Assembly (NCBI GenBank): GCA_019638675.1
Contig: JAHBTE010000001.1
Location: 1,520,605-1,584,604 of the forward strand
Origin: Fimbriimonadaceae bacterium
Lineage (GTDB): Bacteria; Armatimonadota; Fimbriimonadia; Fimbriimonadales; Fimbriimonadaceae
Length of the DNA stretch: 64,000 nt
Direction: 5' to 3'
Position 1 is the stretch's first letter, and each line of letters starts with the position of its first letter. Shown here piece after piece: positions 3,553-64,000 of this stretch. The position numbers and the translations under genes were made by a program. Under the pieces are notes generated by a model, which did not search any database, had not been told where the DNA came from, and saw nothing but the letters and a program-made list of their open reading frames with translations.

Positions 3553-4506
3553 TTATTTATCTGGTCCGAATAACTGTTTTAACTGGCCGTCAAATGGAGT
3601 ACCCGAGTACTCAATTCTTGCGTTAGCCCGTTGGTTAGCCATCATTTTTTCAATGTCGTTTTTCACATTTCCGCGATCAACCATCATTTTGCGGCGGATG
3701 CGTTGCTTGAGCTTTGCGTCGAGGGGCATCACTTCTGATTGCCAGGTTTTTTCGAGGAAGAATTTAATTTCTACGCCTTGGGTTTGACCAGGAACCCAAA
3801 TCGAGGATTGGCCTTCCTTCATACCGTTGACTATGGCCTTGATTGTTCCGCTGAGGTTATCTTCAGGAATAACTCCCATCAGCCCGCCATCGTATTTGGT
3901 TGAGATGTCAATGCTGAGTTCAGCTGCAACGTCGGCAAACGACTTTCCTGCGGCAAGTTGGTCGTCCACTTTCTTTTTCAAAGCTGGGCTATCAATCGTA
4001 ATCACTCGAATCTTGTGCCGCTTCGGCAAAGTGAACTGGGCGCGCTTTTCGTTTTCGTAGAACTGGGTGATCTGTGCATCGGCGATATTGATGCCCATAG
4101 TGGTCAGGTTGAACTCGGAAAGCTGTACTTTAATATCGTATCGCAGGTCAGCCTGGGTAAATCCAAGCATGGTGAACGCTTTTACAAAATCGGGATTGTC
4201 ATCGGTTCTGAACTTGATTTCATCCGTGATTTGGGCCTCGCTTGGTTCAACACCTTTATCTTTGGCGAGTTGAAGCATTAACGCTTCGTTGATGAGTTGC
4301 TGAAGAGTAAGAAATCCTGGTGTGGCTTCAAAAAATTTGCCGCCAACGTTCTTCCCAACGCCAGGGAGAACTTCCATTCTCTTGATGTATTGAGAACGGG
4401 CGATGGGTTGACCGTTGACTGTAACGATAGTGTCTTGAGCTTGGGCTCCGACTGCCATAAGCGCAGTTGCTAAGGCCAGCGTGAATGTTAATGCGCGCGA
4501 TTTCAT
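3553..4506 (-). CDS. SurA/PpiC-like periplasmic peptidyl-prolyl isomerase
   Basis: 317 residues with a clear Sec signal peptide (MKSRALTFTLALATALMAVG, cleavage after AQA). The mature N-terminus (VNGQPIARSQYIKRME, then a long helical region ending LQQLINEALMLQLAKDKGV) has the SurA N-domain pattern, and residues ~165-255 correspond to a parvulin (PpiC) domain. It probably acts as a chaperone or prolyl isomerase for exported proteins in the periplasm. The parvulin part is divergent and I cannot confirm catalytic residues, so a pure chaperone is possible. It is monocistronic or followed by mazG. Confidence 0.82.
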   Translation of the reverse strand: MKSRALTFTLALATALMAVGAQAQDTIVTVNGQPIARSQYIKRMEVLPGVGKNVGGKFFEATPGFLTLQQLINEALMLQLAKDKGVEPSEAQITDEIKFRTDDNPDFVKAFTMLGFTQADLRYDIKVQLSEFNLTTMGINIADAQITQFYENEKRAQFTLPKRHKIRVITIDSPALKKKVDDQLAAGKSFADVAAELSIDISTKYDGGLMGVIPEDNLSGTIKAIVNGMKEGQSSIWVPGQTQGVEIKFFLEKTWQSEVMPLDAKLKQRIRRKMMVDRGNVKNDIEKMMANQRANARIEYSGTPFDGQLKQLFGPDK

Positions 4507-4588
4507 GATCCGTAAAGTTCCGTACCTGTCATTTTGACGAGTGAGTTTCCAAGAAGCGTCGCAGCATAGGCCGGAATTGCCCCCATGT

Positions 4589-4602
4589 CATAATTTCAGC
4601 CT
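4589..4602 (+). promoter_or_regulatory. -10 element 8 nt before lysA start
   Basis: CATAAT at 4589-4594 is followed by only 8 nt before the lysA ATG, and no Shine-Dalgarno is present. Transcription from this box would start at or next to the ATG, so a leaderless mRNA is predicted. Confidence 0.5.
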
Positions 4603-5895
4603 ATGGCAGAGCCAGAATTCGACCCACGCTGGCGCCCAACTGCCGATTTAACCCGTGACCTTGTAGGTCAATTCGGAACTCCGCTGTACGTCATTGACGA
4701 AAACCATTTTCGCAGTCGAATTCGAGATTACATTTCAGCCGCACGGCAAGCTGACCCCAATTGCGAAATCACATTTGCCAGTAAGGCAAACAGTGTTCTC
4801 GCGGTTCTAAAAATCGCCCATTCGGAAGGTTGTCTGATCGATGTCGCTAGCGAAGGAGAACTACGTGCGGCTCTGGCGGCTGGTGTTCCAGCCAGTGCTT
4901 GCCACATGCACGGAAACAACAAAAGCCGAACTGAAATTGAGTTCGCTTTGTCGGTAGGAATCAACCAAATAGTTATCGATAACTTCGAAGAAATCAATAC
5001 TCTTGCAGAACTAAAAGCTACGACGCCTTTGGTTCTCAGACTTGCGCCGGGCGTGCTTCCGATTACTAATGAGAAGATCAGCACGGGGCAGCAAGATACA
5101 AAATTCGGATTTAGTATCCAAGATGGTTCGGCTGAAAAGGCTTTGTTACAAGCGTTGGATTCAGGGCTACAAGTAGTAGGATTTCACTGCCACGTGGGTT
5201 CGCAGCTGCTCGATCCCGAAGCACAAATCTCGGCTGGTCAAAGGCTCGCCCAATTTGCCGCTGAGATGAAGAGCAGGCATGGATTCATCACGCAGGTCAT
5301 AAACGCAGGCGGAGGTCGGGCTGTTCGATACACCAACGAATCTCCAATCGCTCTTGCTGATTACTGTCAGCAACTCGCGCAAGGCGTTCGGCGGGCATTA
5401 GAAGGAACGGATCTTAACCCAAAGCTCGTTCAAGAACCCGGGCGTAGCTTAATTGCCGAAAGCGGGGTCACTATTTACACCATCGGCTCAATCAAGTTAG
5501 TAGAATCCCCGGACGGCGGAACAAAGCGCTATGTGATCGTTAATGGCGGTCTTGCCGATAATCCACGTCCTGCAATGTACGATGCTAAATACGCTGTAGA
5601 GGCGATTGCATGCGATGGACGCGAACTGGGTGAATCCTCATCGGCAACCGTAAGTGGTCGGCATTGCGAGACCGACCTACTGTTTGATCAAGTCATGTTG
5701 CCGAACGACCTGCAACCCGGCGATCTCCTCATCGTTTTAACAACGGGCGCGTATTCAAGTAGTATGGCGAGCAATTACAACCGATATCCTCGACCAGCCA
5801 CCGTGCTTGTGCGAGATTCGGGGCCAGTAATTGTTCAGCGGGCAGAATCGTACGATGAAATGCTCGCTCGGGAAGTTTTGCCAGAGGGAATTTAG
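4603..5895 (+). CDS. lysA: Diaminopimelate decarboxylase
   Basis: 430 residues, PLP-dependent fold III. The N-terminal barrel opens with TPLYVIDENHFRSRI and FASKANSVLAVL, where the Lys is the PLP Schiff-base residue; the barrel continues through GFHCHVGSQLLD, NAGGG and EPGRSLIAESG. The C-terminal half has the substrate-binding GRHCETDLLF and a Tyr near GAYSSSMASNYN. It decarboxylates meso-diaminopimelate to lysine in the cytoplasm. A -10 box lies 8 nt before the ATG. It may be cotranscribed with the downstream site-2 protease (9-bp gap). Confidence 0.92.
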   Translation: MAEPEFDPRWRPTADLTRDLVGQFGTPLYVIDENHFRSRIRDYISAARQADPNCEITFASKANSVLAVLKIAHSEGCLIDVASEGELRAALAAGVPASACHMHGNNKSRTEIEFALSVGINQIVIDNFEEINTLAELKATTPLVLRLAPGVLPITNEKISTGQQDTKFGFSIQDGSAEKALLQALDSGLQVVGFHCHVGSQLLDPEAQISAGQRLAQFAAEMKSRHGFITQVINAGGGRAVRYTNESPIALADYCQQLAQGVRRALEGTDLNPKLVQEPGRSLIAESGVTIYTIGSIKLVESPDGGTKRYVIVNGGLADNPRPAMYDAKYAVEAIACDGRELGESSSATVSGRHCETDLLFDQVMLPNDLQPGDLLIVLTTGAYSSSMASNYNRYPRPATVLVRDSGPVIVQRAESYDEMLAREVLPEGI

Positions 5896-5904
5896 AAACG
5901 ATCA

Positions 5905-6558
5905 ATGGGATACGCAGCACTCGCCATCATCTTATTTATTTCCATCGGACTCCATGAATTTGCTCACGCTAAGGTCGCGGATATGGCGGGTGACCCAACG
6001 CCGCGCTCGCAAGGTCGAGTGACTCTAAACCTGACCAAACACTTTGAAATCACAGGCGTGATCATGATCGTTGTCAGTACGCTCAGCGGATTTGGGATCG
6101 GGTGGGGCAAGCCAGTCATGGTTAATCCCGGGCGAATGAAAAACCCTCGCTGGGATCACTTTGCTAGCGTTATCGCTGGGCCAATGACGAACGTGACTCT
6201 TGCTTTATTGTTCGCTATCGCTTACCGAATTATTGCCATTGCGTATCCCTACGCATTCAATAACGATTTTGTCTACGCATTATTTGGGTACGGAGTATTT
6301 ATCAATATCGTCTTGGCGTTGTTCAACCTCATTCCGCTCGGGCCGCTTGATGGTCACTGGCTCTTAGGGTTATTGCTCCCGGCGCAAAACCGACAACGAT
6401 GGTTTGACTTCAACCGCTCCCAAGGAACTATTCTATTGCTCGTGCTCATCGTTGGCGGGCAAATGATGTCGCGAGCTGGTAGCCCTGGACCAATCGAATT
6501 CCTGATTGGGGTTCCGGCTAGAGCCCTATACCAATATCTTACGGGTAGTCCATTCTGA
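5905..6558 (+). CDS. Site-2 protease family (M50) membrane metalloprotease
   Basis: 217 residues, several membrane segments. HEFAH near residue 13 in the first hydrophobic helix is the HExxH zinc motif of M50 proteases, and the second conserved element (N-x-x-P-x-x-P-L-D-G: NLIPLGPLDGHW) supplies the third ligand Asp. WGKPVMVNP and GPMTN are typical of the short Rip3/YwhC-like subfamily without PDZ or CBS domains. It cleaves transmembrane substrates within the membrane; the substrate is unknown. It follows lysA closely and precedes trpS by 45 bp. Confidence 0.88.
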   Translation: MGYAALAIILFISIGLHEFAHAKVADMAGDPTPRSQGRVTLNLTKHFEITGVIMIVVSTLSGFGIGWGKPVMVNPGRMKNPRWDHFASVIAGPMTNVTLALLFAIAYRIIAIAYPYAFNNDFVYALFGYGVFINIVLALFNLIPLGPLDGHWLLGLLLPAQNRQRWFDFNRSQGTILLLVLIVGGQMMSRAGSPGPIEFLIGVPARALYQYLTGSPF

Positions 6559-6603
6559 TAACCTTCTGGCACGCCAATTGCCAGTTGGAAGGGAAGACGA
6601 ATC

Positions 6604-7599
6604 ATGAGTGAAAATCGCCGAATCTTGAGTGGAATGCGCAGCACAAACCCAAAGCTGCACATCGGGAACTACGAAGGCGCTCTCAGAAACTGGGTCGAAC
6701 TCCAAGAATCGGGGCACGAAATGTTCTGCATGGTTGCGGATTGGCACGCACTGACCACCATGCAAGGAAACTCGGGGGATGCGGGATTTAACGCTCGAGA
6801 AGTAGCAAAAGATTTTGTTGCGGCAGGAATTGACCCAGCTCGATCGGCCGTGTTTATTCAAAGCCACGTCAAAGAACACGCTGAACTACACCTTCTGCTC
6901 AGCATGATCACCCCTCTCGGCTGGTTAGAACGCAACCCCACGTACAAGGAAAAACAAGGCGAAGTCGGAGGAGTTGAACGCGAGCCGTACGGGTTGCTTG
7001 GTTATCCCGTTTTGCAGACCGCGGACATTTTGCTGTATCGCCCACTTGGGGTTCCGGTTGGGCGCGACCAGGCTCCACACCTGGAAATTGGCAACGATAT
7101 TGGTCAACGGTTTAATCGCTTGTTCGAAGTTGAGATATTTGAGCCGTACAAATATCTCATTCCGGCCGACGAAAATCGAGCCAAGGTGCCGGGGCTTGAT
7201 ATGAGGAAGATGAGCAAGAGTTACGACAACTGCATCTATCTCACCGATACGCCGGATGAAACAGCGGAAAAGATCAAAAGCGCATTTACAACTCCAACCA
7301 AACTCCGCAAAACCGATCCGGGCATTCCAGAAGGTTGCGCGGTCTGCCAGTATCTAAAAATCTACTCTCCGAACTGGGAAACTCAGTGGTCAGAGGACGT
7401 AGCCGGTGAGCGCGGCTGTATGCAAAACAAGAAGGAACTCACGGAGATCATCAACGAATACTTCCGCCCGATGCGCGAACGTCGCGCGGCATTATCGGAC
7501 GGCGATATTGAGGATATTTTGATCTCGGGCGCTGAAAAGGCGCGCGCAGTTGCCAGCGAAACCATGTCCATGGTTCGCAAAGCAATGGGCTTGTATTAG
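6604..7599 (+). CDS. trpS: Tryptophanyl-tRNA synthetase
   Basis: 331 residues, the normal length for bacterial class I TrpRS. The HIGH-like signature is KLHIGNYEGA (about residues 17-26) and the second class I signature is DMRKMSKSYDN. LQTADILLYRP and VPVGRDQAPHLE are family-specific active-site segments. It charges tRNA-Trp in the cytoplasm. ATG at 6604 is preceded by GGAAGG about 15 nt upstream. Confidence 0.95.
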   Translation: MSENRRILSGMRSTNPKLHIGNYEGALRNWVELQESGHEMFCMVADWHALTTMQGNSGDAGFNAREVAKDFVAAGIDPARSAVFIQSHVKEHAELHLLLSMITPLGWLERNPTYKEKQGEVGGVEREPYGLLGYPVLQTADILLYRPLGVPVGRDQAPHLEIGNDIGQRFNRLFEVEIFEPYKYLIPADENRAKVPGLDMRKMSKSYDNCIYLTDTPDETAEKIKSAFTTPTKLRKTDPGIPEGCAVCQYLKIYSPNWETQWSEDVAGERGCMQNKKELTEIINEYFRPMRERRAALSDGDIEDILISGAEKARAVASETMSMVRKAMGLY

Positions 7600-7611
7600 A
7601 AAGAGATTTCG

Positions 7612-7617
7612 TATACT
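7612..7617 (+). promoter_or_regulatory. -10 element 10 nt before the 49-aa gene
   Basis: TATACT sits in the trpS-to-small-gene gap, 10 nt before the ATG at 7628. No Shine-Dalgarno is seen, suggesting an own promoter with a leaderless or nearly leaderless transcript. Confidence 0.4.
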
Positions 7618-7627
7618 AGGATTAAGA

Positions 7628-7777
7628 ATGCCTACACATGATAAAAAATGGGTTCCGACTCCCGAGCAACTCAAGATGATTGAGGACGCCGTTCGTGAAA
7701 ATGGATCAGGATATTCTTACACGGAAGACGAAGCACGTGCGGAAATCGAGCGTCGCGTCAAGCTACTTATTAAGTGA
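7628..7777 (+). CDS. 49-residue conserved-looking small protein
   Basis: The ATG at 7628 gives MPTHDKKWVPTPEQLKMIED followed by a short acidic and helical sequence ending RRVKLLIK. The upstream in-frame extension to 7550 runs inside trpS and is unlikely to be used. The charged helical composition suggests a small soluble protein. No family recognised. A TATACT box 10 nt upstream of the ATG supports expression. Confidence 0.55.
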   Translation: MPTHDKKWVPTPEQLKMIEDAVRENGSGYSYTEDEARAEIERRVKLLIK

Positions 7778-7800
7778 GCATATATATTTCAGCGAATAGG

Positions 7801-8355
7801 CTAAGCCCGCGTTCCTGGCTTCGTAATTGGAATCTCAGCAAGCCAATCAGGAACCTCGTCCTCAGCCCAGCTCTCTGCCTCGACTTTGTAGCCAGCGAAG
7901 TACGGTGCGCCAAAATCGATTGGGTTTGGCGCGCGGTCAATAAGCACACCGACCCCAGCTATCGTGCCTCCAAAAGCCCGAATCGCGTCTACCGTTTCGA
8001 TAACGGAAAGGCCAGTGGTGAGAACATCGTCAACGACTAAAACCCGCGCTCCCGAGGGAATGGAGGCATTGCGGCGCAGGGTCTTCACCCCGTCCACCGT
8101 TTCGACATACCGAGCCGGTACCCCCAGTTGCCGCGCGACTTCGAAAGCGATAATGATCCCGCCCGTCGTTGGCCCGGCGACGAGATCAACCTGACCGCGA
8201 AACTGATCGGCTATTTCGGTGCAGAGTGCCGAAAGCGCAGGTGGTGATTCGAGCACCCGAAACTTCTCAAAATAAATATCCGAATGCCGCCCGGAAGTGA
8301 GTTTGAAATGGCCCTTGAGAATTGCTCCTGATTCTCGGAGCAACTGTTCGAGCAT
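7801..8355 (-). CDS. pyrE: Orotate phosphoribosyltransferase
   Basis: Starting at ATG 8355 the protein is 184 residues: LRESGAILKGHFKLTSGRHS is the typical PyrE N-terminus, and VLVVDDVLTTGLSVIE is the PRPP-binding loop (acidic pair DD then T-T-G). It converts orotate plus PRPP to OMP in pyrimidine synthesis. The frame is open to 8454; a TTG at 8376 overlapping the panD stop would give MANSNREM and stronger coupling, so the start is undecided. It is last in the ccmE-ccmF-panD-pyrE unit. Confidence 0.9.
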   Translation of the reverse strand: MLEQLLRESGAILKGHFKLTSGRHSDIYFEKFRVLESPPALSALCTEIADQFRGQVDLVAGPTTGGIIIAFEVARQLGVPARYVETVDGVKTLRRNASIPSGARVLVVDDVLTTGLSVIETVDAIRAFGGTIAGVGVLIDRAPNPIDFGAPYFAGYKVEAESWAEDEVPDWLAEIPITKPGTRA

Positions 8356-8368
8356 TTCGCGGTTAGAG

Positions 8369-8731
8369 TTAGCCAAGGACGTTGAATGGGGTGAGGTCGC
8401 GGACGATTTCGTTTTCGTCGCCGAGCAGCACAATTCGCGGAGTGATGGGTTCATCGCTCAGCGTGAATGCTGCGATGATGACTCGATCCCCCATTTCAAA
8501 ATGGTAGGCCGCGCCGCCGTTCAAGCCGATCACACCTTTGGGGCCAGCAAATGCGTAAGTTTGAATTCGTGATTTATGATCAACTGCCCAGATGTGGACG
8601 AGTTCGCCGTCGATAATGCCGACTTCGCGCATGAGATCGCCATCAATTTCGATGCTCCCAACGTAATCGGGGTTCGAATAAGTGATGCGTCCGTGATGGA
8701 GTTTAGACTTCAAGAGTGTCCGAAGTTGCAT
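8369..8731 (-). CDS. panD: Aspartate 1-decarboxylase (pyruvoyl enzyme)
   Basis: 120 residues, typical of bacterial PanD. The self-cleavage site Gly25-Ser26 is in YVGSIEID; the new N-terminal Ser becomes the pyruvoyl group. NGGAAYHFEMGDRVIIAAF is the conserved C-terminal barrel segment. It makes beta-alanine for pantothenate/CoA. The start overlaps the 3' end of ccmF by 29 bp, and the stop is next to or overlapping pyrE. Confidence 0.95.
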   Translation of the reverse strand: MQLRTLLKSKLHHGRITYSNPDYVGSIEIDGDLMREVGIIDGELVHIWAVDHKSRIQTYAFAGPKGVIGLNGGAAYHFEMGDRVIIAAFTLSDEPITPRIVLLGDENEIVRDLTPFNVLG

Positions 8732-40688: not shown

Positions 40689-43067
40689 ATGGCCAAATCG
40701 GCCCGAACGAAGCCGGCTCCTGACCGTAAAAAAATCAGACGCCGTAAGAAAATAAAGGTCTTCCTGACTTTGAGCCTCATGTTTTTGATGCTCATTTTTA
40801 TTGTCGGATCAGTTTTTGCTTATCAGCGACTCCAAAAGGCTGAGCTCATCGTAAACAAGCTTGATACTGTTATTCAAGATTTGAACAGTCGCCCATCACG
40901 CATTGAATCGGCGGATGGCGAGGTTCTTTACGAAATCCAATCTGAATACCGTAAGGCGGTACCCCGTTCGGATATTCCTCAGCGCGTCGTTAATGCGATG
41001 GTCGCGGCGGAAGACAAACGGTTCTGGGATCATCCAGGTATCGACTTCTGGTCGCTCATGCGGATTTTGTTTGTTGCAACCAAAGAGCGGAGCACACGTG
41101 AAAGCGGCGGCGGTTCCACGCTCACAATGCAGATCGCTAAGCGGGTTTTCACGGGTGATGCTCCTACCATTGAAAGAAAGCTTGACAACATGGCTTTAGC
41201 CATCGTTATCGAACGGAAAATGACCAAAGACCAGATCCTTGAACTCTACATGAATCAGGTGTTCTTTGGTCAACAAGCTTACGGAATCAGTGCGGCGGCC
41301 GACGTTTATTTTGGTAAGTCTTTGGATGACCTCACGGTTGCAGAAGCCGCTATGTTGGCGCGTTGTGTTCGTAGACCAAGCGACGAAAATCCGGTGGCGA
41401 ACTTAGACAAAGCAACTAAGAACCGCAATGTCGTTCTCTCAATTATGCGCGAGGAAGGCTACATTGACCAGAAAGAGTATCAGGAAGCGAAGGAAGAGCC
41501 GGTCAAGCTTCGAGCCAAGCGCCCTCAAGTGGTCACAAAAGAAAAAGTCCACCCTTACTTTGTTGACTATGTTCTCAACGAACTCGCAAAGAAGGGAATT
41601 GATATTTCCGCAGGCGGATACCGGGTAGTCACGACATTAAATAGCACGTATCAAACGATTGCCGAAAAAGGGGTTGTCAAGTGGGTAAAGAACCTGAAAG
41701 GCTATCGCGTCAACCAAATGGCGATCTTAGTGACCGACAACGCTGGTCGTATTGTTTCAATGGTCGGTGGCCCGGATTACCAAAAGTCGGAATTTAATAT
41801 GATGTGGATGGGGCCAGGGCGTCAACCAGGCTCTAGCTTTAAGCCTTTTGTTTATGCGGCTGGGTTGGATCGTGGCGTGTTCGATGAAGGCACTACCATC
41901 TCGACTTCGCCGATGAAGAAACCGTTTTCCAGCGAGTACTTCCAGGGTGGAGCGAATCGTGGCCGGGTTTCTATATCAACTGCCCTCACAACATCTAACA
42001 ACACGGCGGCGGTTCGAGCGATTGATGAGGTAGGCGAAAGCAACACGGTTGCGTTTTGCAAACGGAGTCTTGGGTTTAAGAAGAGCAATTTGCCTGCAGT
42101 AATGAGCCTTGCTCTTGGATCGGGCGAAGTTTATATGCCGGAAATGGCGGAAGCCTATTCGGTATTCCAGAGCCATGGGGATCGCTATCCGGTTTACGCT
42201 GTTTCGCGAGTGATTCATCCAGATGGATCAGAAGAATCTATGGTGCCCAAAAAAGCGCGGGCTGTAATGAACGCGGCGGGAGCGGAATACATTGACCTGT
42301 GCCTCCGGCAAAACGTTCTGTCGGGAACGGGGACTCACGTCCGAAGTGTCATTAATGCGAGAGGAAAAACTGGCACGACCAACGATCACAAGGATGCTTG
42401 GTTCTGTGGATACACCGATCAGTTGATTGGAATTGCTTGGGTAGCAAACGAACAAATTGTCAATGGGCGCCCAGTTGCTACTCCGATGCGTGGTTTGTTC
42501 GGTGGTGAGGGGCCAGCCAGAGTTTGGAACGATATCTTGCGAGATATTCAGAAAAAAGTTGGCGAAAAATCGCGTCCGTTCAACGGTGTTCGCAGTGTGA
42601 CGGTCAAGGAAGAACCAGATGATCCGGAAGAACCAGTGGATGAGCCGCCAGTGGTTGATCCAGGTATCCCAGATGAGCCACCAGTAGATCCAAACTTGGT
42701 TAAAGACCCAAATGAAACCAAACCTCCCGTCTCGCCGCCAAAAACCACAGGTGGAACTGGACAAAACCAAGATGTTGTTTACGTAAGTGTATGCGCAGAT
42801 TCTGGTCAAAGAGCCAACGCTTATTGCCCAGAAACGGTGCGCCGACCTTTCTTTAAGGGAAGCGAGCCGAAAGGTGTCTGTCCACTTCACGGGCCTACAT
42901 TTACCGAGGTTCTAACAAGCCATACTGATGCAAAGGAGGAACGATATGCAAGAGCAGCAAGCTGGAACCGAAAAACCGATTTCAAAGCGGCTTCTCATCT
43001 TGCCGATCTTTCTCGCTCTATTTTTCTCCTTCTGCATAGCGCAGCTCTTTTTGGTGCAAATCGTTAA
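40689..43067 (+). CDS. Class A penicillin-binding protein (PBP1A-like)
   Basis: 792 residues: short basic cytoplasmic tail, one membrane helix (~25-45), GT51 glycosyltransferase (VAAEDKRFWDHPGIDF with catalytic Glu, GGGSTLTMQIAKRVF), and transpeptidase with GSSFKPF (catalytic Ser), TSNNT (SxN) and KTGTTN (KTG). A Pro/Glu linker and a Cys-containing tail (VSVCADSG, YCPET, GVCPLHG) follow. The final ~45 residues overlap a well-initiated downstream gene in another frame and look non-native. It polymerises and cross-links peptidoglycan. Confidence 0.92.
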   Translation: MAKSARTKPAPDRKKIRRRKKIKVFLTLSLMFLMLIFIVGSVFAYQRLQKAELIVNKLDTVIQDLNSRPSRIESADGEVLYEIQSEYRKAVPRSDIPQRVVNAMVAAEDKRFWDHPGIDFWSLMRILFVATKERSTRESGGGSTLTMQIAKRVFTGDAPTIERKLDNMALAIVIERKMTKDQILELYMNQVFFGQQAYGISAAADVYFGKSLDDLTVAEAAMLARCVRRPSDENPVANLDKATKNRNVVLSIMREEGYIDQKEYQEAKEEPVKLRAKRPQVVTKEKVHPYFVDYVLNELAKKGIDISAGGYRVVTTLNSTYQTIAEKGVVKWVKNLKGYRVNQMAILVTDNAGRIVSMVGGPDYQKSEFNMMWMGPGRQPGSSFKPFVYAAGLDRGVFDEGTTISTSPMKKPFSSEYFQGGANRGRVSISTALTTSNNTAAVRAIDEVGESNTVAFCKRSLGFKKSNLPAVMSLALGSGEVYMPEMAEAYSVFQSHGDRYPVYAVSRVIHPDGSEESMVPKKARAVMNAAGAEYIDLCLRQNVLSGTGTHVRSVINARGKTGTTNDHKDAWFCGYTDQLIGIAWVANEQIVNGRPVATPMRGLFGGEGPARVWNDILRDIQKKVGEKSRPFNGVRSVTVKEEPDDPEEPVDEPPVVDPGIPDEPPVDPNLVKDPNETKPPVSPPKTTGGTGQNQDVVYVSVCADSGQRANAYCPETVRRPFFKGSEPKGVCPLHGPTFTEVLTSHTDAKEERYARAASWNRKTDFKAASHLADLSRSIFLLLHSAALFGANR

Positions 43068-55490: not shown

Positions 55491-56788
55491 ACTCAGAGTC
55501 AACTACAACTGGGCTCTTTGAAAAGGCTGTTTCTGATCGGCCCGATGGTTTTCCAGGAAACTCGCATCCTAAATCCACTGATGCCCAGCACTATCATACG
55601 TATCTTCAAACCCTCAAAAACACGTGTATACCGCTATACAAGGAAGTTGCTCAGGCGAGCTTGGCTAAAGATATCGAGGATTTGATCGCGGAAATCGCCA
55701 ACCTAAGCAACAGTAAATCACTGAATATGGATTTACTTACTAAGACCTTATTTGAGAAAATCCGCTATCTTAATTCGCATGGTCCCGAGCATGTCCAGCT
55801 AGTTGACAAAAGAGCATGCGAGTTATTGATCGAGATGAAAATTGTCCTAGAAGCCTATGAGCTTTACTTCTTGGTCGCGGCAATATGGGTTCACGATGTC
55901 GGAATGATCTACGGCAGAGATGGGCATGAAAAGAGCTTAAAGAACGTCGTCTCTTCACTCGGTGACACAATTGGAGATGAGCAAGAAAGGAGAACGATAA
56001 TTGCTATTGCTGGCGTTCATGGCGGGCATGTAGAAAACCAGCCAGACAACAAGGACACGATTAGCACTATAAGAAGCAGTAGCCCTGTCAGTAGTAAAAG
56101 AGTCCGATTGCAACTTCTCGCGGCTCTTGTTAGACTTGCTGATGAATTGGCTGAAGACAAATCGAGGGCCACAAAAATTCCTTCTTATCTGAAAACCTCT
56201 GAGGATAGTGCGACACGTGCGAGTGAAGTTTTCCATGCTTATTCCTCTTGTCTTGATAGTTGTATAATTAATGGCTCTGACCGTACTATAGAGTTGGAAT
56301 TTTTGCTTAATGTTGACGATGTCATCCGCGACTATCATAAAGGATCGAAGAAGGTCTACTTACTAGATGAAATTTATGATCGAACCACAAAGGTATTCAA
56401 CGAATTAACGTATTGCAATCGCTTCTTCGTCGATGCACTGCAAGGAGGAGCAACATTACTTGATGCAGTGAAGATCGATATCAAAATTTACGACAATAGC
56501 GACGACATTGCCCCTATCTTTTTGATGGCATACACTCTGAGGGGGAGTGGCTACCCAACGTATGACTCATCTTCCTTGTTAACTCATTGCCCAGAAATCA
56601 CTAAGGCAATGAAGGATTTGGCTGATACGATTCCAGACGCACGAGCACAAGATGCCTTAAAGCAAGGCCCTAATGGAAAATGTTTAGCAGAAATATTTGC
56701 TGTCAAAAGGGCGGCTTCGATTACTCCAAAGCCACGAAAGACTTTGACGGAGAGATTTCAAACCATTTTCAGGAAAGAAGAAGCATGA
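55487..56788 (+). CDS. HD-CE-like HD-domain phosphohydrolase of a conflict system
   Basis: 433 residues. HGPEHVQLV (His102) and AAIWVHDVGM (His136-Asp137) form the HD metal site, with IAIAGVHGGHV and LVRLADELAED (Asp) further on. The long gap between the first His and HD, and YELYFLVAAIW, match the HD-CE family described in nucleotide-linked conflict systems (recalled, not searched). The rest is an unassigned alpha/beta region. It starts inside the stop codon of the methyltransferase and ends inside the start of the ATPase. Confidence 0.7.
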   Translation: MNSESTTTGLFEKAVSDRPDGFPGNSHPKSTDAQHYHTYLQTLKNTCIPLYKEVAQASLAKDIEDLIAEIANLSNSKSLNMDLLTKTLFEKIRYLNSHGPEHVQLVDKRACELLIEMKIVLEAYELYFLVAAIWVHDVGMIYGRDGHEKSLKNVVSSLGDTIGDEQERRTIIAIAGVHGGHVENQPDNKDTISTIRSSSPVSSKRVRLQLLAALVRLADELAEDKSRATKIPSYLKTSEDSATRASEVFHAYSSCLDSCIINGSDRTIELEFLLNVDDVIRDYHKGSKKVYLLDEIYDRTTKVFNELTYCNRFFVDALQGGATLLDAVKIDIKIYDNSDDIAPIFLMAYTLRGSGYPTYDSSSLLTHCPEITKAMKDLADTIPDARAQDALKQGPNGKCLAEIFAVKRAASITPKPRKTLTERFQTIFRKEEA

Positions 56789-58590
56789 GTAATTACACAA
56801 TTGTGCCAGGCACAAACCCATTTGTTGTACACCACGCTGAGGATATTCCTGCTGATGAAATGAAGCGGCTCTTTGTAAATGTCCTCTCAGATTTTACGCG
56901 CTTTTCAAACCCTGGACACGCGATGTTGCACGGGCCTCGTGGAACTGGAAAAAGCATGATTCTTCGTTATCTTTTGCCAGATTGTCAAGCAAGAGAGCGG
57001 CAAAGTTGCTTACAGGAACTCCCTTTTCATAGTGTTTATGTTGGTGTCAAGAGGTCAGAACTAGGTCTTACTGAGTTGCGTCGTCTGCGAATGAACGCGG
57101 TAGATTTTTTTATACTAGAGCACTTAATGGTGTTGCAGTGCTTGACTAAGTTGACCGCTTCTTTGAAAACTAATTCTGAACTGATAAATGATAGTAAAGT
57201 CGGCGATATCCAACTCTTCTACAAGGATGTATTTTGTAAAGAACTACGTTTGAGCGGAGTGTCGGGATTAGATGATGGTTTGCAGGTTAATACAAAACAA
57301 TCCCTGTTTGAAGCTATGGAAAATTGCTTTGAGAATATGGCAAGGGAGGCAACTTCTCATCTTAAAAGGTTAGGATTTTCTTCAGATGTTGCATATTCTG
57401 GCCCATTGTGTTCCTATTCGGATACCTTTCTAAGACTAGTAACTGGCATTAAGATGTGTGGTCTTATAAGTTCAGGCCCGTTGTTTTTAATGGTTGATGA
57501 CGCTGATTTACTAGGTGAGTCGCTTACTCTTGTACTAAATAGTTGGATCGCGAGTAGAACAACTGACAATGTTTGTATTAAAGTTACTACGCAATATAAA
57601 TATAAAACATACAGAACTCCGTCAGGAAATCTCATAGAGAGTCCCCACGATTTCATTGAACTAGATTGCGCGCAGGTTTATACATCTAAAGATAATAGAT
57701 ATTATAACTTGGTGCGAGAGATTGTACAATTGAGGCTAAACGCCGCAGGTTTAGATATTTCTCCAGAAGCATATTTTCCGGCTTACCAAAAGCAGGAAGA
57801 CGCTATTGAAGAAGAGCGTAAACGCTTAATTTCTGATTGGGGAAAGACTGGAAGAGGATACAGACCCAGCGATGATGCGACGAGATATGCCAGGCCGAAT
57901 TATATCCGTAGTCTAAAAGGAACGGCTAAAAGCGGATCATCATATTTCTATGCAGGCTTTGAACAGTTGGTTCACGTCTCCTCCGGTGTTTATCGCTTCT
58001 TCTTGGCTCCGGCTTCTTCAATGTATGAAAGTCAGTTTGAGTCTCAGAAACAGGTTCCAACCCATATAGAACATACGGTTCAAGACGAAGTTGTTCGCGA
58101 TCACGCTTCACATTTGCTTTATAAGAATTTTGAGAAGATTGCGGATGATCCAGAAGATGAATTGCTAGTAGGAGAGGCTGATGTTGAAAGACTTCAAAAT
58201 CTAGTGCATAGTCTCGGTGGCATCTTTGCAGAGATTCAAAATTCTGACAGGAGTGAAAGAAGAGTAACCTCAATAGCTTTATCACAGTCTCCGACTAAGG
58301 AAATTTTAAATGTTTTAAAATTAGGTGTTCAATCAGGTTATTTTGTCGAAGCCACGCTGGGCAATAAAGAGGGCACAGGTCGTACACGTCGGTTTATTTT
58401 GACAAAGCGTCTAGCCCCAGCGTTTCTTTTAGATCCTTTTGGATTTGCAGGATACTTGTTTGTAACAAATGACGCGCTGGCGCAATGCATGACAGACCCT
58501 AAGAGAGCTATCTCTAATTTTATGAATAAACGACTGAAATCCAATGATGCTTCGCAAATGGATTTGTTTGGGGAGATGAGTGATTTATGA
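56785..58590 (+). CDS. ORC/CDC6-like P-loop ATPase
   Basis: 601 residues from ATG 56785, overlapping the HD-gene stop (ATGA). Walker A GPRGTGKS is at residues 50-57, Walker B LFLMVDDADLL at about 232-242, followed by TTQYKYKTYRTP as a sensor region. The lid and a ~300-residue helical C-terminal part are unassigned (winged-helix-like in the last third is possible). Similar to ORC/CDC6-like ATPases found in defence modules. It presumably gates a partner effector. Confidence 0.72.
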   Translation: MSNYTIVPGTNPFVVHHAEDIPADEMKRLFVNVLSDFTRFSNPGHAMLHGPRGTGKSMILRYLLPDCQARERQSCLQELPFHSVYVGVKRSELGLTELRRLRMNAVDFFILEHLMVLQCLTKLTASLKTNSELINDSKVGDIQLFYKDVFCKELRLSGVSGLDDGLQVNTKQSLFEAMENCFENMAREATSHLKRLGFSSDVAYSGPLCSYSDTFLRLVTGIKMCGLISSGPLFLMVDDADLLGESLTLVLNSWIASRTTDNVCIKVTTQYKYKTYRTPSGNLIESPHDFIELDCAQVYTSKDNRYYNLVREIVQLRLNAAGLDISPEAYFPAYQKQEDAIEEERKRLISDWGKTGRGYRPSDDATRYARPNYIRSLKGTAKSGSSYFYAGFEQLVHVSSGVYRFFLAPASSMYESQFESQKQVPTHIEHTVQDEVVRDHASHLLYKNFEKIADDPEDELLVGEADVERLQNLVHSLGGIFAEIQNSDRSERRVTSIALSQSPTKEILNVLKLGVQSGYFVEATLGNKEGTGRTRRFILTKRLAPAFLLDPFGFAGYLFVTNDALAQCMTDPKRAISNFMNKRLKSNDASQMDLFGEMSDL

Positions 58591-59585
58591 GTTCAATTCC
58601 CCTAGATAATTTTGGAGAGTCCTTGGAAGGAAAGAGTGTAATGCTTCTAACGTCGGCAAGCTTTGAGCGGCGTTGCACTGTCATTCCAAGGATTGTGAGT
58701 CAGAATGCGGAAAATAGTGAAGCTATTTTGATTTTCAATGAAGAAAATCTTTTGAGTATTGACGAGAACATGAAATTGATTGAATCATGCTTTAGTGGTT
58801 CTATTTGTGAGTCGTTTGCTGTTTCTGGCTCTAACCCTATCAAATCGGCAGATACTTTACATGCGATTGCTAAGCGTCTTGTGCGTTTGGAAGTTGATGA
58901 AGTTATCGTAGATGTTTCAGCAATGATGCGAGAATCATTATTGATACTCCTCGCCGCTTTAAAATCAGTGGAAGAACCCCGTTCTAAGATTTCCTTTGTT
59001 TATGTGCCAGCCCAGTACGGTCAAAAAGCATCTATGGCGAGTTCGGCAAGCGGAATCCTGGCTGATAGACGGCCTAGGCTGAGTTTTGGAATCTTGGAGG
59101 TTAGATCAGTAGTTGGTTTTCCCGGAGATTACAGCCCGGCAAGTAGAAGGCATTTGATCTTATTGACAGGTTTTGAGGTTGAGCGTGCAAGGGCAGTTAT
59201 TCAGTCCACTGAGCCAACACACATTTCTATTGGAGTGGGCTTACGAGAACGATCTACTACGGGGCTAAATGCTTCTCTTGATTTATCGTTTGCTGAAGAG
59301 CTTTTGAATGATTATGGGTCGTTAGCATCCAGATTTAATATTTATCCAGATAGTGCAAATGATACGGCAACGGCAATAGTTTCAGAGCGAGAGAAGTTTA
59401 AGGGCTATAAAACGATCATTTGCTCGATGAATACTAAGGTTTCTACATGTGGCGCGGCAATTGTCGCAATGAGTGATTCAGCGGTGGGTATGGTTTATGC
59501 TCAACCGGCACTTTACAATCAAGTTGATTATGCTGACCCTCTAAATGAGGTGTATGCATTTGAAATGCCAATTTGGACGCCCTAA
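58587..59585 (+). CDS. Rossmann-like protein, fourth gene of the conflict operon
   Basis: 332 residues; starts inside the ATPase stop codon. Strand VMLLTSASFERRC, AILIFNEENLL, then EVIVDVSAMMRESLLILLAAL and ISFVYVPAQYG, give an alternating alpha/beta N-half reminiscent of CARF-type sensors, but no diagnostic motif was found. The C-half has repeating AEE/ASRF segments ending in FEMPIWTP. Function unknown; sensor or effector by position. Confidence 0.6.
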   Translation: MSSIPLDNFGESLEGKSVMLLTSASFERRCTVIPRIVSQNAENSEAILIFNEENLLSIDENMKLIESCFSGSICESFAVSGSNPIKSADTLHAIAKRLVRLEVDEVIVDVSAMMRESLLILLAALKSVEEPRSKISFVYVPAQYGQKASMASSASGILADRRPRLSFGILEVRSVVGFPGDYSPASRRHLILLTGFEVERARAVIQSTEPTHISIGVGLRERSTTGLNASLDLSFAEELLNDYGSLASRFNIYPDSANDTATAIVSEREKFKGYKTIICSMNTKVSTCGAAIVAMSDSAVGMVYAQPALYNQVDYADPLNEVYAFEMPIWTP

Positions 59586-59593
59586 GTTTAATC

Positions 59594-60985
59594 CTATTCG
59601 GGCTCAGCTGATCCGATTGCGATTTTCGCTATCGTTTCAGGGATAGATTTTCCTAACTGCTTCACTGAATCAGTTAGGTGCTTAGCATAGCGGTAATGCG
59701 CCCCAGTTCCTGTTCGCAACTCCACTTCATATATATATTTATCAAAGGTTGTTGAATGTGTAAAGTTGAATTCATGCCCCAGTAAGATACGAGAAGTATA
59801 AGCTACATTCTGTATCTCTAGCTGATTTCGTGACCATGACAGTTGCTTTAAGCCAAACGAAGAAAAAGAGCTTGGTAAAGCTAAATCCAACCGTCTAGCC
59901 TCATCTTGGGCCATATAGAAACCAATCGGAACCAACGGGCAATACTTTGCTCCTGTACGATGCCGATTTAGGTCTCTAATTTCTGCAAGCGAAACTCCTT
60001 CCCAACCAAATCGAATTAGTGTTGACCTAACAGGCTCTCCGATAAAGGCGTAGCGATGACTGTGATGCTTAAGGGCTTCACTGAGTGTTTTGTCGGTAAC
60101 CCCAAGCGGTAAAAATAACTCAACGGTGGCTTCAGATTTTGCTTCTGTATCGAATCGTTTTGCTTCTGTCGAAGTACAGGTCTTAGCGAAACTAATGAAT
60201 TCATCTTGAAGACCTACAACTGTTCCAGGCTGTTCCGTTGCGTGCTTTGTCATACGGGGTGCTTCGAGTTGAAGTTGCTCTACGATCAACCCACCCAATT
60301 TACGGGCCTCTGGATGATAATGAGATAGTAAGTATTGGCATAATTGAACCCAACCCCGCGCAGACATGATAAGCATCATATTTGTAAGGGCACAGACTGG
60401 GAGAAAATATCGTGACCTATCAAATGCAAAGTTTCGTCGCATTCGTGCTACTTGCTTCTGAGCCTTATCAGTAGGGTCATCGAGCAAGCTTTGCGGTATC
60501 CGCATCACTTCGGGTTTTTCTTCTGCAACCCTTTCCCAAAATTGAAGTGCCTCAGTGTAGAAGTGGAATGATTCTTCAAGAAAGGCTCGCCACTCGGAGA
60601 CTTCGACATCCGGAACGCAAAAAAGGTCTGGAGATGCTACACCATCAGACGATAACTTGACGTATCGAGTAGAAGATTCTTGCCCCCCCGCTGTTGGGCA
60701 TTGAGACCAGATTAGATAGGCAAGCCAAATGGAGATTTCGTCAATGAAGATTGAGACTGGCACCATGTCTGCAATGGACTGATGCCCATAGTCGATCATC
60801 TTGAAAATAGAATCAACTGATTTATCCGGGTTTCCAGGATCGACCTTGGAGAGAATAGCTTCGAGTCCTTCGTTGTTCCGTGAATACCGGGCACCGCTTG
60901 CCGCAAGAAGCTCCGGCGTGAGTTGAGGCGCGCCTGCAAGGCGTGCAGACTCAGATTGCCTTACGGAAACGAGGGTGGCTCTCAT
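59594..60985 (-). CDS. Bipartite ThyX-like flavoprotein
   Basis: 463 residues from ATG 60985 (frame opens at 61021, upstream of a likely TACAAT -10 box). Half 1 has the ThyX-like DYGHQSIADMVPVSIFID with SQCPTAGGQESSTRYV, where RHR is replaced but S-x-R-Y remains. Half 2 has IRDLNRHRTGAKYCPLVPIG, which carries RHR. The dUMP/FAD motif set of ThyX is thus divided between halves. Either a fused pseudo-dimer or a ThyX relative with new substrate. Convergent to the conflict operon. Confidence 0.7.
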   Translation of the reverse strand: MRATLVSVRQSESARLAGAPQLTPELLAASGARYSRNNEGLEAILSKVDPGNPDKSVDSIFKMIDYGHQSIADMVPVSIFIDEISIWLAYLIWSQCPTAGGQESSTRYVKLSSDGVASPDLFCVPDVEVSEWRAFLEESFHFYTEALQFWERVAEEKPEVMRIPQSLLDDPTDKAQKQVARMRRNFAFDRSRYFLPVCALTNMMLIMSARGWVQLCQYLLSHYHPEARKLGGLIVEQLQLEAPRMTKHATEQPGTVVGLQDEFISFAKTCTSTEAKRFDTEAKSEATVELFLPLGVTDKTLSEALKHHSHRYAFIGEPVRSTLIRFGWEGVSLAEIRDLNRHRTGAKYCPLVPIGFYMAQDEARRLDLALPSSFSSFGLKQLSWSRNQLEIQNVAYTSRILLGHEFNFTHSTTFDKYIYEVELRTGTGAHYRYAKHLTDSVKQLGKSIPETIAKIAIGSAEPE

Positions 60986-61066
60986 GGATTGAAGTATGGC
61001 TCCAATCAAGATTGTACCCAAACAAGCAGACGTATATATACATGTGTTGACCAGCCTACCACTATC

Positions 61067-62331: not shown

Positions 62332-62610
62332 ATGGGTCGACAAGATACGATCACGATTCATCGTGATGAATACAAGACCCTGATCCGTTTGATCGTTGAT
62401 GAACGTTTGAAAGCTGGTTTAGGGCAACGCGAGGTTGCACGTCGGATCAAACTTCCTCAAGCTACGCTTTGGACCATTGAAAAGGGCGAACGTCGTTTGG
62501 ATGCCCTTGAGTTCTTGAACCTTTCAGTTGCAATCGGATTTAATCCCGGTGAACTGCTTGAAGAAGTGAAGCGGCTCCATCCCGAAGTCTACAACTCAGA
62601 AGACGTTTGA
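62332..62610 (+). CDS. XRE-family regulator
   Basis: 92 residues. Helix-turn-helix: LGQREVARRIKLPQATLWTI followed by EKGERRLDALEFLNLSVAIG. Single-domain regulator like those that control mobile elements. Located next to the predicted right end of the element; palindromes lie just upstream (62287) and across the stop codon (62604-62620). Confidence 0.85.
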   Translation: MGRQDTITIHRDEYKTLIRLIVDERLKAGLGQREVARRIKLPQATLWTIEKGERRLDALEFLNLSVAIGFNPGELLEEVKRLHPEVYNSEDV

Positions 62611-62620: not shown

Positions 62621-62796
62621 ATAGAGGGGTTTATAGCCTTGCCCGTACACATACTGGGTTGCGTGATTGACAGTCAATCTGTCCATTCTGTGGAGCTATG
62701 AGGTCAGAAAATCAGATGCCCCAGTGGAACGCCACCCGTTGTATGGGGGTTATGCCACCCTGTGAGTTTTCAAGGCGGTGAGAGCTGTGTCTACAA

Positions 62797-62806
62797 CGGA
62801 GTACCA
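62797..62806 (+). repeat. Candidate right attachment site of the tRNA-Glu element
   Basis: CGGAGTACCA equals the last 10 bases of tRNA-Glu (50622-50631). Just after it AACAACA-ttttgtg-TGTTGTT is a perfect hairpin that would have followed the tRNA before insertion. The 62611-62854 gap otherwise has GATTGAC-A-GTCAATC (62665-62679) and repeated GCCACCC. Confidence 0.5.
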
Positions 62807-62854
62807 ACAACATTTTGTGTGTTGTTAAACAGCATTTCCCCGATAGGATGTGTA

Positions 62855-63514
62855 CTAAGTAATAGACCAATTATCCCTATTGGCTTGACGAGGTAGAGAG
62901 TACGGAGTTTTCTCCACCGCGTCATCGTATTCCTGGCCGATTAGACGTTTCCACAGTGCACTTTTCTTAATCTTTTTCTGGAAATCCTCTCGGAATATAG
63001 CGAAGTTGTGCAAGTTCCAGGTCTTACCGTCCAGAAGTAACTCGGATTCCATTGTTCCTTCCGAATGCAGGACATCACTAAAGCGGGTAACTAACCCCAT
63101 GCTTCCAAGATTCCATTCTGCTACAGCAACTTTGATTTTGCCAAGGTTGTGGTCGAAGAAGAGGTGGTTAGCAAATAGGCCGAAGCCAGCGGCCGCGATT
63201 TCCCGTCGCCGGTACTCTGGTGCTACATAGAGTCCTACGCTTGTTCCGGTGCGATAGATGCCCTTAGGCTCTGCGTAAATAAACCCAGCAGGGATGCCGT
63301 CGGGCGCAAGAATGATCGCAGAGTCCATAACACGCTCTGACAAAGCCTGAAGTTCAGACTTAAATCCTTCAGGGTCGATGAAATTACGTTCTCCATTCCA
63401 GAGAAAGAGTTCGGTGATTGAATTACGCCAGCGGAACATGAGGGGGAGGTGTTCGGGCAAGACTGGTCCAAGGGCCACTCCGCATTTTGCACTTAAGGTT
63501 GCAATTTGATTCAT
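62855..63514 (-). CDS. GNAT-family N-acetyltransferase
   Basis: About 219 residues from ATG 63514 (MNQIATLSAK). The first acceptor-binding part is LFRWRNSI-like (LPLMFRWRNSITELFLWNGE), then the acetyl-CoA site SVGLYVAPEYRRREIAAAG and a terminal motif near AVAEWNLGSMGLVTRF, as in RimJ/L-type GNATs. Substrate unknown. The longer frame to 63607 overlaps the tiny ICKP ORF and is rejected. It is likely cotranscribed with that ORF 68 bp upstream. Confidence 0.83.
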   Translation of the reverse strand: MNQIATLSAKCGVALGPVLPEHLPLMFRWRNSITELFLWNGERNFIDPEGFKSELQALSERVMDSAIILAPDGIPAGFIYAEPKGIYRTGTSVGLYVAPEYRRREIAAAGFGLFANHLFFDHNLGKIKVAVAEWNLGSMGLVTRFSDVLHSEGTMESELLLDGKTWNLHNFAIFREDFQKKIKKSALWKRLIGQEYDDAVEKTPYSLPRQANRDNWSIT

Positions 63515-63540
63515 TTTATAATTCCATTTTTGTAGGGTTA

Positions 63541-63562
63541 GCGGGATCTCAATAGATCCCGC
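63541..63562 (-). promoter_or_regulatory. Hairpin between ICKP ORF and GNAT gene
   Basis: GCGGGATC-tctaat/tcaata-GATCCCGC, a perfect 8-bp stem with a 6-nt loop and no T-tract. Possible attenuator or processing stem between the tiny ORF and the acetyltransferase. Confidence 0.5.
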
Positions 63563-63582
63563 TTCAAGGTGAGAAGTAGAGT

Positions 63583-63633
63583 CTACGGTTTGCAAATTGG
63601 CTTGCAAATTGGCTTACAAATGAAAATCTTCAT
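63583..63633 (-). CDS. 16-residue peptide with three ICKP repeats
   Basis: ATG at 63633 encodes MKIFICKPICKPICKP, stop at 63585-63583. AAAGGAGG (63648-63641) is 7 nt upstream, the best ribosome-binding site in the window. The three repeat units are ATT-TGT-AAG-CCA, ATT-TGC-AAG-CCA, ATT-TGC-AAA-CCG: all differences are synonymous, evidence that the peptide is under selection. No leader or signal. It could be a RiPP-like precursor modified by neighbours, or a stalling leader peptide for the GNAT gene. Confidence 0.7.
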   Translation of the reverse strand: MKIFICKPICKPICKP

Positions 63634-63648
63634 TGCCATACCTCCTTT

Positions 63649-63684
63649 AATCAGTTTTGAGATTCAACAATCTCCAAACTGATT
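63649..63684 (-). promoter_or_regulatory. Long 5'-UTR hairpin before the ICKP ORF
   Basis: AATCAGTTTTGAGATT and AATCTCCAAACTGATT pair at 15 of 16 positions round a 4-nt loop. It ends one base from the ribosome-binding site. No T-run on the minus strand, so not a terminator there; likely mRNA protector or translation control. Confidence 0.6.
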
Positions 63685-63703
63685 TTAATAGAGGTTTGCT
63701 CGA

Positions 63704-63731
63704 AACATATATGCTTAGAATCTCTTGTCAA
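63704..63731 (-). promoter_or_regulatory. Promoter of the ICKP/GNAT unit
   Basis: Perfect -35 TTGACA (63731-63726), 16-bp spacer, -10 TATGTT (63709-63704). A start near 63697 gives a ~63-nt leader containing the hairpin and Shine-Dalgarno. Confidence 0.6.
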
Positions 63732-63769
63732 GAATATGTCAAAGTTCCGCCAAGTCCGTCAAAATTGAG

Positions 63770-64000
63770 TCAATTTCTTTTGAGAAGTAGCACTCCGTGT
63801 CCAAGGCCTCCTTCTCCCATTAACGACTTTGAGACGACAGTAAAACCTTTCTTAATTAGCCATTCCTCAAATGAATCCAGCCGGAATCGCCATATGCTCA
63901 AAACAGGATGAGCGAAGTCTTTGTCTTTAAAAATAATCGCTAAAGCATCAGGCACGCAACAAGAACTCGATTCCAATTCTGTTGTCACCAGTTCGGAGAA
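63770..64000 (-). CDS. C-terminal end of a gene cut by the right edge
   Basis: 76 codons remain, open to the window edge, ending SLMGEGGLGHGVLLLKRN. The WRFRLDSFEEWLIKKGFTVV segment and terminal strand look like the last part of a class I SAM-dependent methyltransferase, but this is weak. It is 38 bp upstream of the ICKP promoter, same strand. Confidence 0.5.
   Translation of the reverse strand, partial: FSELVTTELESSSCCVPDALAIIFKDKDFAHPVLSIWRFRLDSFEEWLIKKGFTVVSKSLMGEGGLGHGVLLLKRN

Follow-up and report, generated by a model that had tools for sequence, protein, structure and literature searches.

What does a 16-codon open reading frame (ORF) that encodes Ile-Cys-Lys-Pro three times over do in front of a gene for a GNAT-family acetyltransferase? 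The two stand together on the minus strand of the window, by which we mean the whole 64,000-nucleotide stretch of DNA analysed here, and between positions 63731 and 62855 one reads, in this order, a promoter-like pair of hexamers, a 15/16-bp palindrome, the Shine-Dalgarno (SD) sequence AAAGGAGGT, an ATG, the codons for MKIFICKPICKPICKP with their stop, a 10-bp hairpin and the GNAT gene (Table 1). A first-pass annotation had described the DNA in these terms, and our reading of the sequence bears out all of the minus-strand elements. Our answer to the question is a tentative one: the ORF is possibly a cis-acting leader that exerts translational control over an accessory GNAT gene, and it is nearly as likely to be a minisatellite without function.

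Table 1. Features of the locus and its surroundings, in window positions.
Feature	Position	Strand	Remark
Promoter-like TTGACA-N16-TATGTT	63704..63731	-	TTGACA at 63731, TATGTT ending at 63704, spacer 16 bp; consensus match 10/12; scan yield not above shuffles
CCTCT	63690..63694	-	fold: for a transcript start at ~63697, predicted to pair with the leader ORF's AGGAGG
Palindrome/hairpin, 15/16 bp, 4-nt loop	63649..63684	-	arms 63684-63669/63664-63649
Shine-Dalgarno AAAGGAGGT	63640..63648	-	sequence
16-codon ORF MKIFICKPICKPICKP-stop, stop included	63583..63633	-	sequence; ATG at 63633, TAG 63585-63583
Perfect 10-bp hairpin (10/10), no U-run after	63540..63563	-	arms 63563-63554/63549-63540
GNAT-family acetyltransferase gene, 219 aa	62855..63514	-	without clear SD; close relative not found
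HTH + EgtD-like methyltransferase gene, 3' part; 441 aa; runs beyond window	63770..64000	-	whole gene L005:6375-7700
Species-specific 2.7-kb insert, in-window part	62622..64000	.	L005:5227-7937; alignment with same-genus genome G003; holds GNAT, leader, methyltransferase

The arrangement of these sequence elements is real and non-random. Namely, when the 255-nt intergenic region was shuffled 1500 times, a hairpin like the 15/16 one did not arise once, the 10/10 hairpin was equalled in 4 of 1500, three tandem 12-mers with at most 3 mismatches never appeared (0/20,000 shuffles), and AAGGAGG followed at 4 to 10 nt by ATG on either strand was found in 12 of 3000 shuffles of the same region. Palindrome, tandem array and ribosome-binding site are thus each beyond chance, whereas the promoter match is not, the scan having returned 3 matches against 1.8 expected from shuffles, which is not significant. 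No other tandem repeat in the window, what is more, scores as high as the Ile-Cys-Lys-Pro array. Leader and palindrome are single-copy in the genome, which rules out a multi-copy element.

Few ribosome-binding sites in the window match that of the ORF in strength and placement. In particular, AAAGGAGG (63648-63641) lies 7 nt upstream of the ATG; of the 8 occurrences of AAGGAGG in the window, only this one and the one at 42933 have an ATG at the right distance, and the SD is weak or absent in many of the window's genes. The in-frame ATG at 63639 is an unlikely start, being too near the SD. As for what is encoded, the repeat units ATTTGTAAGCCA, ATTTGCAAGCCA and ATTTGCAAACCG place the cysteines in CxxxCxxxC spacing and differ from one another at three sites, all of them third-position transitions and all synonymous, a pattern whose chance is 0.006 if all substitutions are allowed, 0.015 if they are transition-biased and 0.031 if they are transitions only. 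From the same synonymy the first-pass annotation had concluded that the peptide itself is selected; the observation stands (p 0.006-0.03), but the conclusion is overstated from three changes. Three synonymous events are a hint of coding constraint on the repeat units, which they favour without proving.

Could the ORF, then, be an accident? One can well argue that a 12-bp minisatellite came to lie in frame by chance behind a purine-rich stretch of 5' untranslated region, in which case the ORF would have no function and the palindrome would serve the GNAT gene as an operator or as a hairpin that stabilises its mRNA. We consider this a serious possibility. The pattern of three consecutive [hydrophobic]CKP units occurs at 29 places in ~85,000 genomes and in 4 viral matches; reading the frames of them all, and the DNA context at ten of the 29 places, we found intergenic minisatellites, overlaps with longer ORFs or other frames, antisense readings (GLQKGLQK-type coding read on the other strand) and long cysteine-rich proteins. 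Twelve-bp CKP-type arrays therefore arise independently in unrelated genomes, be it in intergenic, antisense or other-frame positions, which supports the chance reading. CKP-repeat ORFs upstream of GNAT genes in other genomes, for which the first-pass annotation had proposed a search, were absent from the matches whose DNA context was examined. Two further points lie on the same side, namely that ~9.7 kb of intergenic DNA contain GGAGG-N4..10-ATG at three places, and that the ORF, for which no conservation was found, has a synonymous pattern of three changes only. On the other hand, a full AAAGGAGGT at good spacing and whole, in-frame, stop-terminated units with synonymous-only changes are jointly unlikely to have come about by accident.

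The search for relatives tells how far comparison can carry the matter. The pattern SD-ATG-CKP-CKP returned only its own copy from 291 genomes of the phylum, and relatives of the ORF, the leader or the GNAT gene were found neither in these genomes, nor in ~780 genomes of two other phylum-level groups, nor in phages, plasmids and viral contigs, save for two generic matches (22-23% identity) to the GNAT gene within genus, class and phylum; for the ~780 genomes, empty answers show little. The GNAT protein itself matches Acetyltransf_1 (PF00583) barely above the cut-off (22 bits against 20.7), has no relative of solved structure by sequence, and gave an unusable single-sequence structure prediction (pLDDT 33). 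Upstream of the leader lies the gene for a protein of 441 aa that combines an HTH-like N-terminus with an EgtD-like histidine methyltransferase domain; its matches in five other genomes of the class are distant and partial only (24-36% identity).

Judging from the alignment with a sister species in the same genus (83-87% DNA identity), the finding is located in a species-specific insert at a variable site. Namely, the sister genome keeps the flanking genes, that is, the 92-aa Xre-like gene at 62332-62610 and the DinB-like genes beyond the window, and lacks the whole 2.7-kb insert with leader, GNAT gene and HTH-methyltransferase gene, carrying a different island of 7.5 kb at the site. That no homologous loci were found follows from this location; the leader is a candidate from a single genome, whose function comparison cannot confirm. 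The sister site (L072, reverse complement 3658-8640) encodes an SMC/ABC-like ATPase of 659 aa, two unknown proteins and a 443-aa DNA methylase-like protein, the ABC-type ATPase and the DNA methylase having been named by reading of the sequence, and this content suggests a hotspot for defence-type islands. Elsewhere in the window, a low-GC stretch (0.418) on the plus strand at 56680-59585 holds two adjacent genes, one for an ATPase-like protein of 636 aa and one for a protein of 332 aa that strongly matches a PADLOC CARF6 model (E 4.7e-61); the pair is probably part of a defence system. On the minus strand (59594-61021) lies a gene for a 475-aa protein with two Thy1/ThyX-like stretches, longer than an ordinary ThyX, for which the aligned locus of the sister species showed no counterpart.

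How would a leader at this place control the GNAT gene? In the model that we tentatively favour, the mRNA would start near 63697, and leader codons 3-8 would pair with the GNAT start region and repress translation of the GNAT gene. While a ribosome is translating, or has paused within, codons 1-10 of the leader, the GNAT start would be accessible; the pause would come at the CKP units, rich as they are in Cys codons and in Cys-Lys-Pro, for example under a shortage of Cys-tRNA or in the presence of a ribosome inhibitor. The frequency of leader translation would depend on the 5' hairpin, which is able to hide the leader SD as well. Of this model, we infer the promoter, the transcription and translation, the pause and the inducer; the pairing of the leader with the GNAT start, and its opening, are predicted.

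Folding the predicted mRNA (63697-63440) does place the GNAT start region in a pairing with leader codons 3-8. The predicted probability that the GNAT AUG is unpaired is 0.30 with the leader and 0.75 without it, and it rises to 0.70-0.83 when a ribosome is placed with its P site on leader codons 1-10. Further along, the value is 0.56 at codon 11 and 0.22-0.38 at codons 12-15, so that a late pause would not expose the start, and approximately 0.5 at codon 16 or the stop, a partial exposure. Masking by the leader, relieved by a ribosome on codons 1-10, is the predicted anatomy of translational attenuation. The statistics behind this prediction are weak (p 0.037 to 0.42). Namely, the pairing of leader and GNAT start in context is 0.60 against 0.16 in dinucleotide shuffles (p 0.037), it does not differ significantly from that in synonymous recodings (p 0.11), and the energy of the bare leader-GNAT duplex is ordinary, no better than in shuffles (p 0.42). 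The 5' region is unusually structured on the leader strand (z -6.6 against shuffles), mostly owing to the two hairpins. The leader has its own masking as well: if the transcript starts at ~63697, the CCUCU at its 5' end is predicted to cover the leader SD, whose unpaired probability is approximately 0.16 with this motif in the transcript and ~0.3-0.97 without it, and the leader AUG lies in a small predicted stem. With SD and AUG both masked in this way, translation of the leader would be low or controlled. No intrinsic terminator was recognised between leader and GNAT gene, and the hairpin at 63563-63540 is by its sequence not one, because no U-run follows it. A search of the leader against Rfam gave chance-level matches only and none above the gathering score, so that no known RNA family was recognised.

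A bolder version of the leader model takes (ICKP)3 to be a new, repeat-built arrest peptide, on which a shortage of Cys-tRNA, thiol chemistry or an antibiotic would pause the ribosome, with the effect that an acetyltransferase acquired horizontally is switched on. We regard it as rather unlikely.

It is unlikely, too, that the peptide acts in trans, as a CxxxCxxxC mini-peptide that would bind metal or otherwise work away from its gene, possibly after modification by the GNAT. The exact repetition of CKP with synonymous changes, the cysteine spacing and the strong SD of its own would all suit such a product, but the 2.7-kb insert shows no precursor leader region, export signal, protease, transporter or other maturase, the GNAT matches no maturase family, and no relatives were found. 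A precedent would be the selidamides, lipopeptides of the RiPP class acylated by a GNAT, whose described cluster comprises the GNAT, an NHLP-type precursor, a lanthionine synthetase, an arginase, a hydroxylase and transporters (PMC9505594). A small Lys-containing peptide adjoining a GNAT gene is what the present locus shares with them; of the other components of that cluster none was seen nearby. An acylated peptide after the fashion of selidamides, as the first-pass annotation had envisaged, thus finds no backing here: the NCBIfam and PHROGs maturase families gave no match to the GNAT (generic weak PHROGs and Pfam matches apart), and no other RiPP gene was seen in the insert.

Still somewhat less likely is that control is mainly transcriptional, the palindrome being a DNA operator to which one of the local HTH proteins would bind, either the HTH-methyltransferase or the Xre-like one of 92 aa. 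Such a reading is invited by a dyad of 36 bp that closely follows the promoter-like site and by the two HTH proteins nearby, but the dyad does not recur, either in front of the methyltransferase gene or anywhere else in the genome, and an operator shared with the methyltransferase promoter is rejected for the same reason. Finally, the GNAT frame stays open upstream of its start, into the leader, and is -1 relative to the ORF; programmed -1 frameshifting out of the ORF into the GNAT frame is dismissed for want of a slippery heptamer at the ORF end, and an extension of the GNAT frame from the upstream TTG (63607) for want of an SD there.

Returning to the leader ORF with translational control, we can set its points side by side. 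In its favour are the well-spaced AAAGGAGGT before the ORF, next to a GNAT gene without a clear SD, and the preservation of frame and residues through three unit differences; against it are the predicted masking of the leader's own SD and AUG, the lack of a recognised intrinsic terminator and the lack of a conserved homologue. A stalling leader that induces the acetyltransferase had been one of the suggestions of the first-pass annotation, and it stays plausible in view of the strong SD, the structured 5' region and the predicted opening by the ribosome, but it is weakened by a pairing only weakly above controls and by the masked start.

As a candidate, the locus comes closest to the leaders of inducible resistance genes. 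Leaders of the ErmCL/ErmBL type are translational attenuation leaders of resistance genes; like them, the ORF is short, has a strong SD, precedes an enzyme gene and has leader mRNA predicted to mask the start of that gene, whereas, unlike in them, there is no known arrest motif, the pairing statistics are weak and the leader SD is predicted to be masked too. Amino-acid attenuation leaders contain runs of the regulatory codon, of which the three Cys codons in 16 are reminiscent; the differences are that no terminator/antiterminator pair was recognised here and that no cysteine-synthesis gene lies downstream. The leader peptides TnaC and MsrDL stall the ribosome at the stop codon and control transcription via Rho or an intrinsic terminator (PMC8429421, PMC10314930). 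The ORF resembles TnaC in being a short leader with a Pro-stop ending (PMC8429421) and MsrDL in its very short length (PMC10314930), and differs from both in that no terminator was recognised and in that a ribosome at the stop would, in the model, expose the GNAT start only partly.

What would follow if the ORF were both translated and regulatory? The leader peptide would then be one built from exact repeats of a tetrapeptide, and, if this is true, sequences that arrest or pause the ribosome may be born from minisatellites in the mobile accessory DNA of a little-studied group of bacteria.
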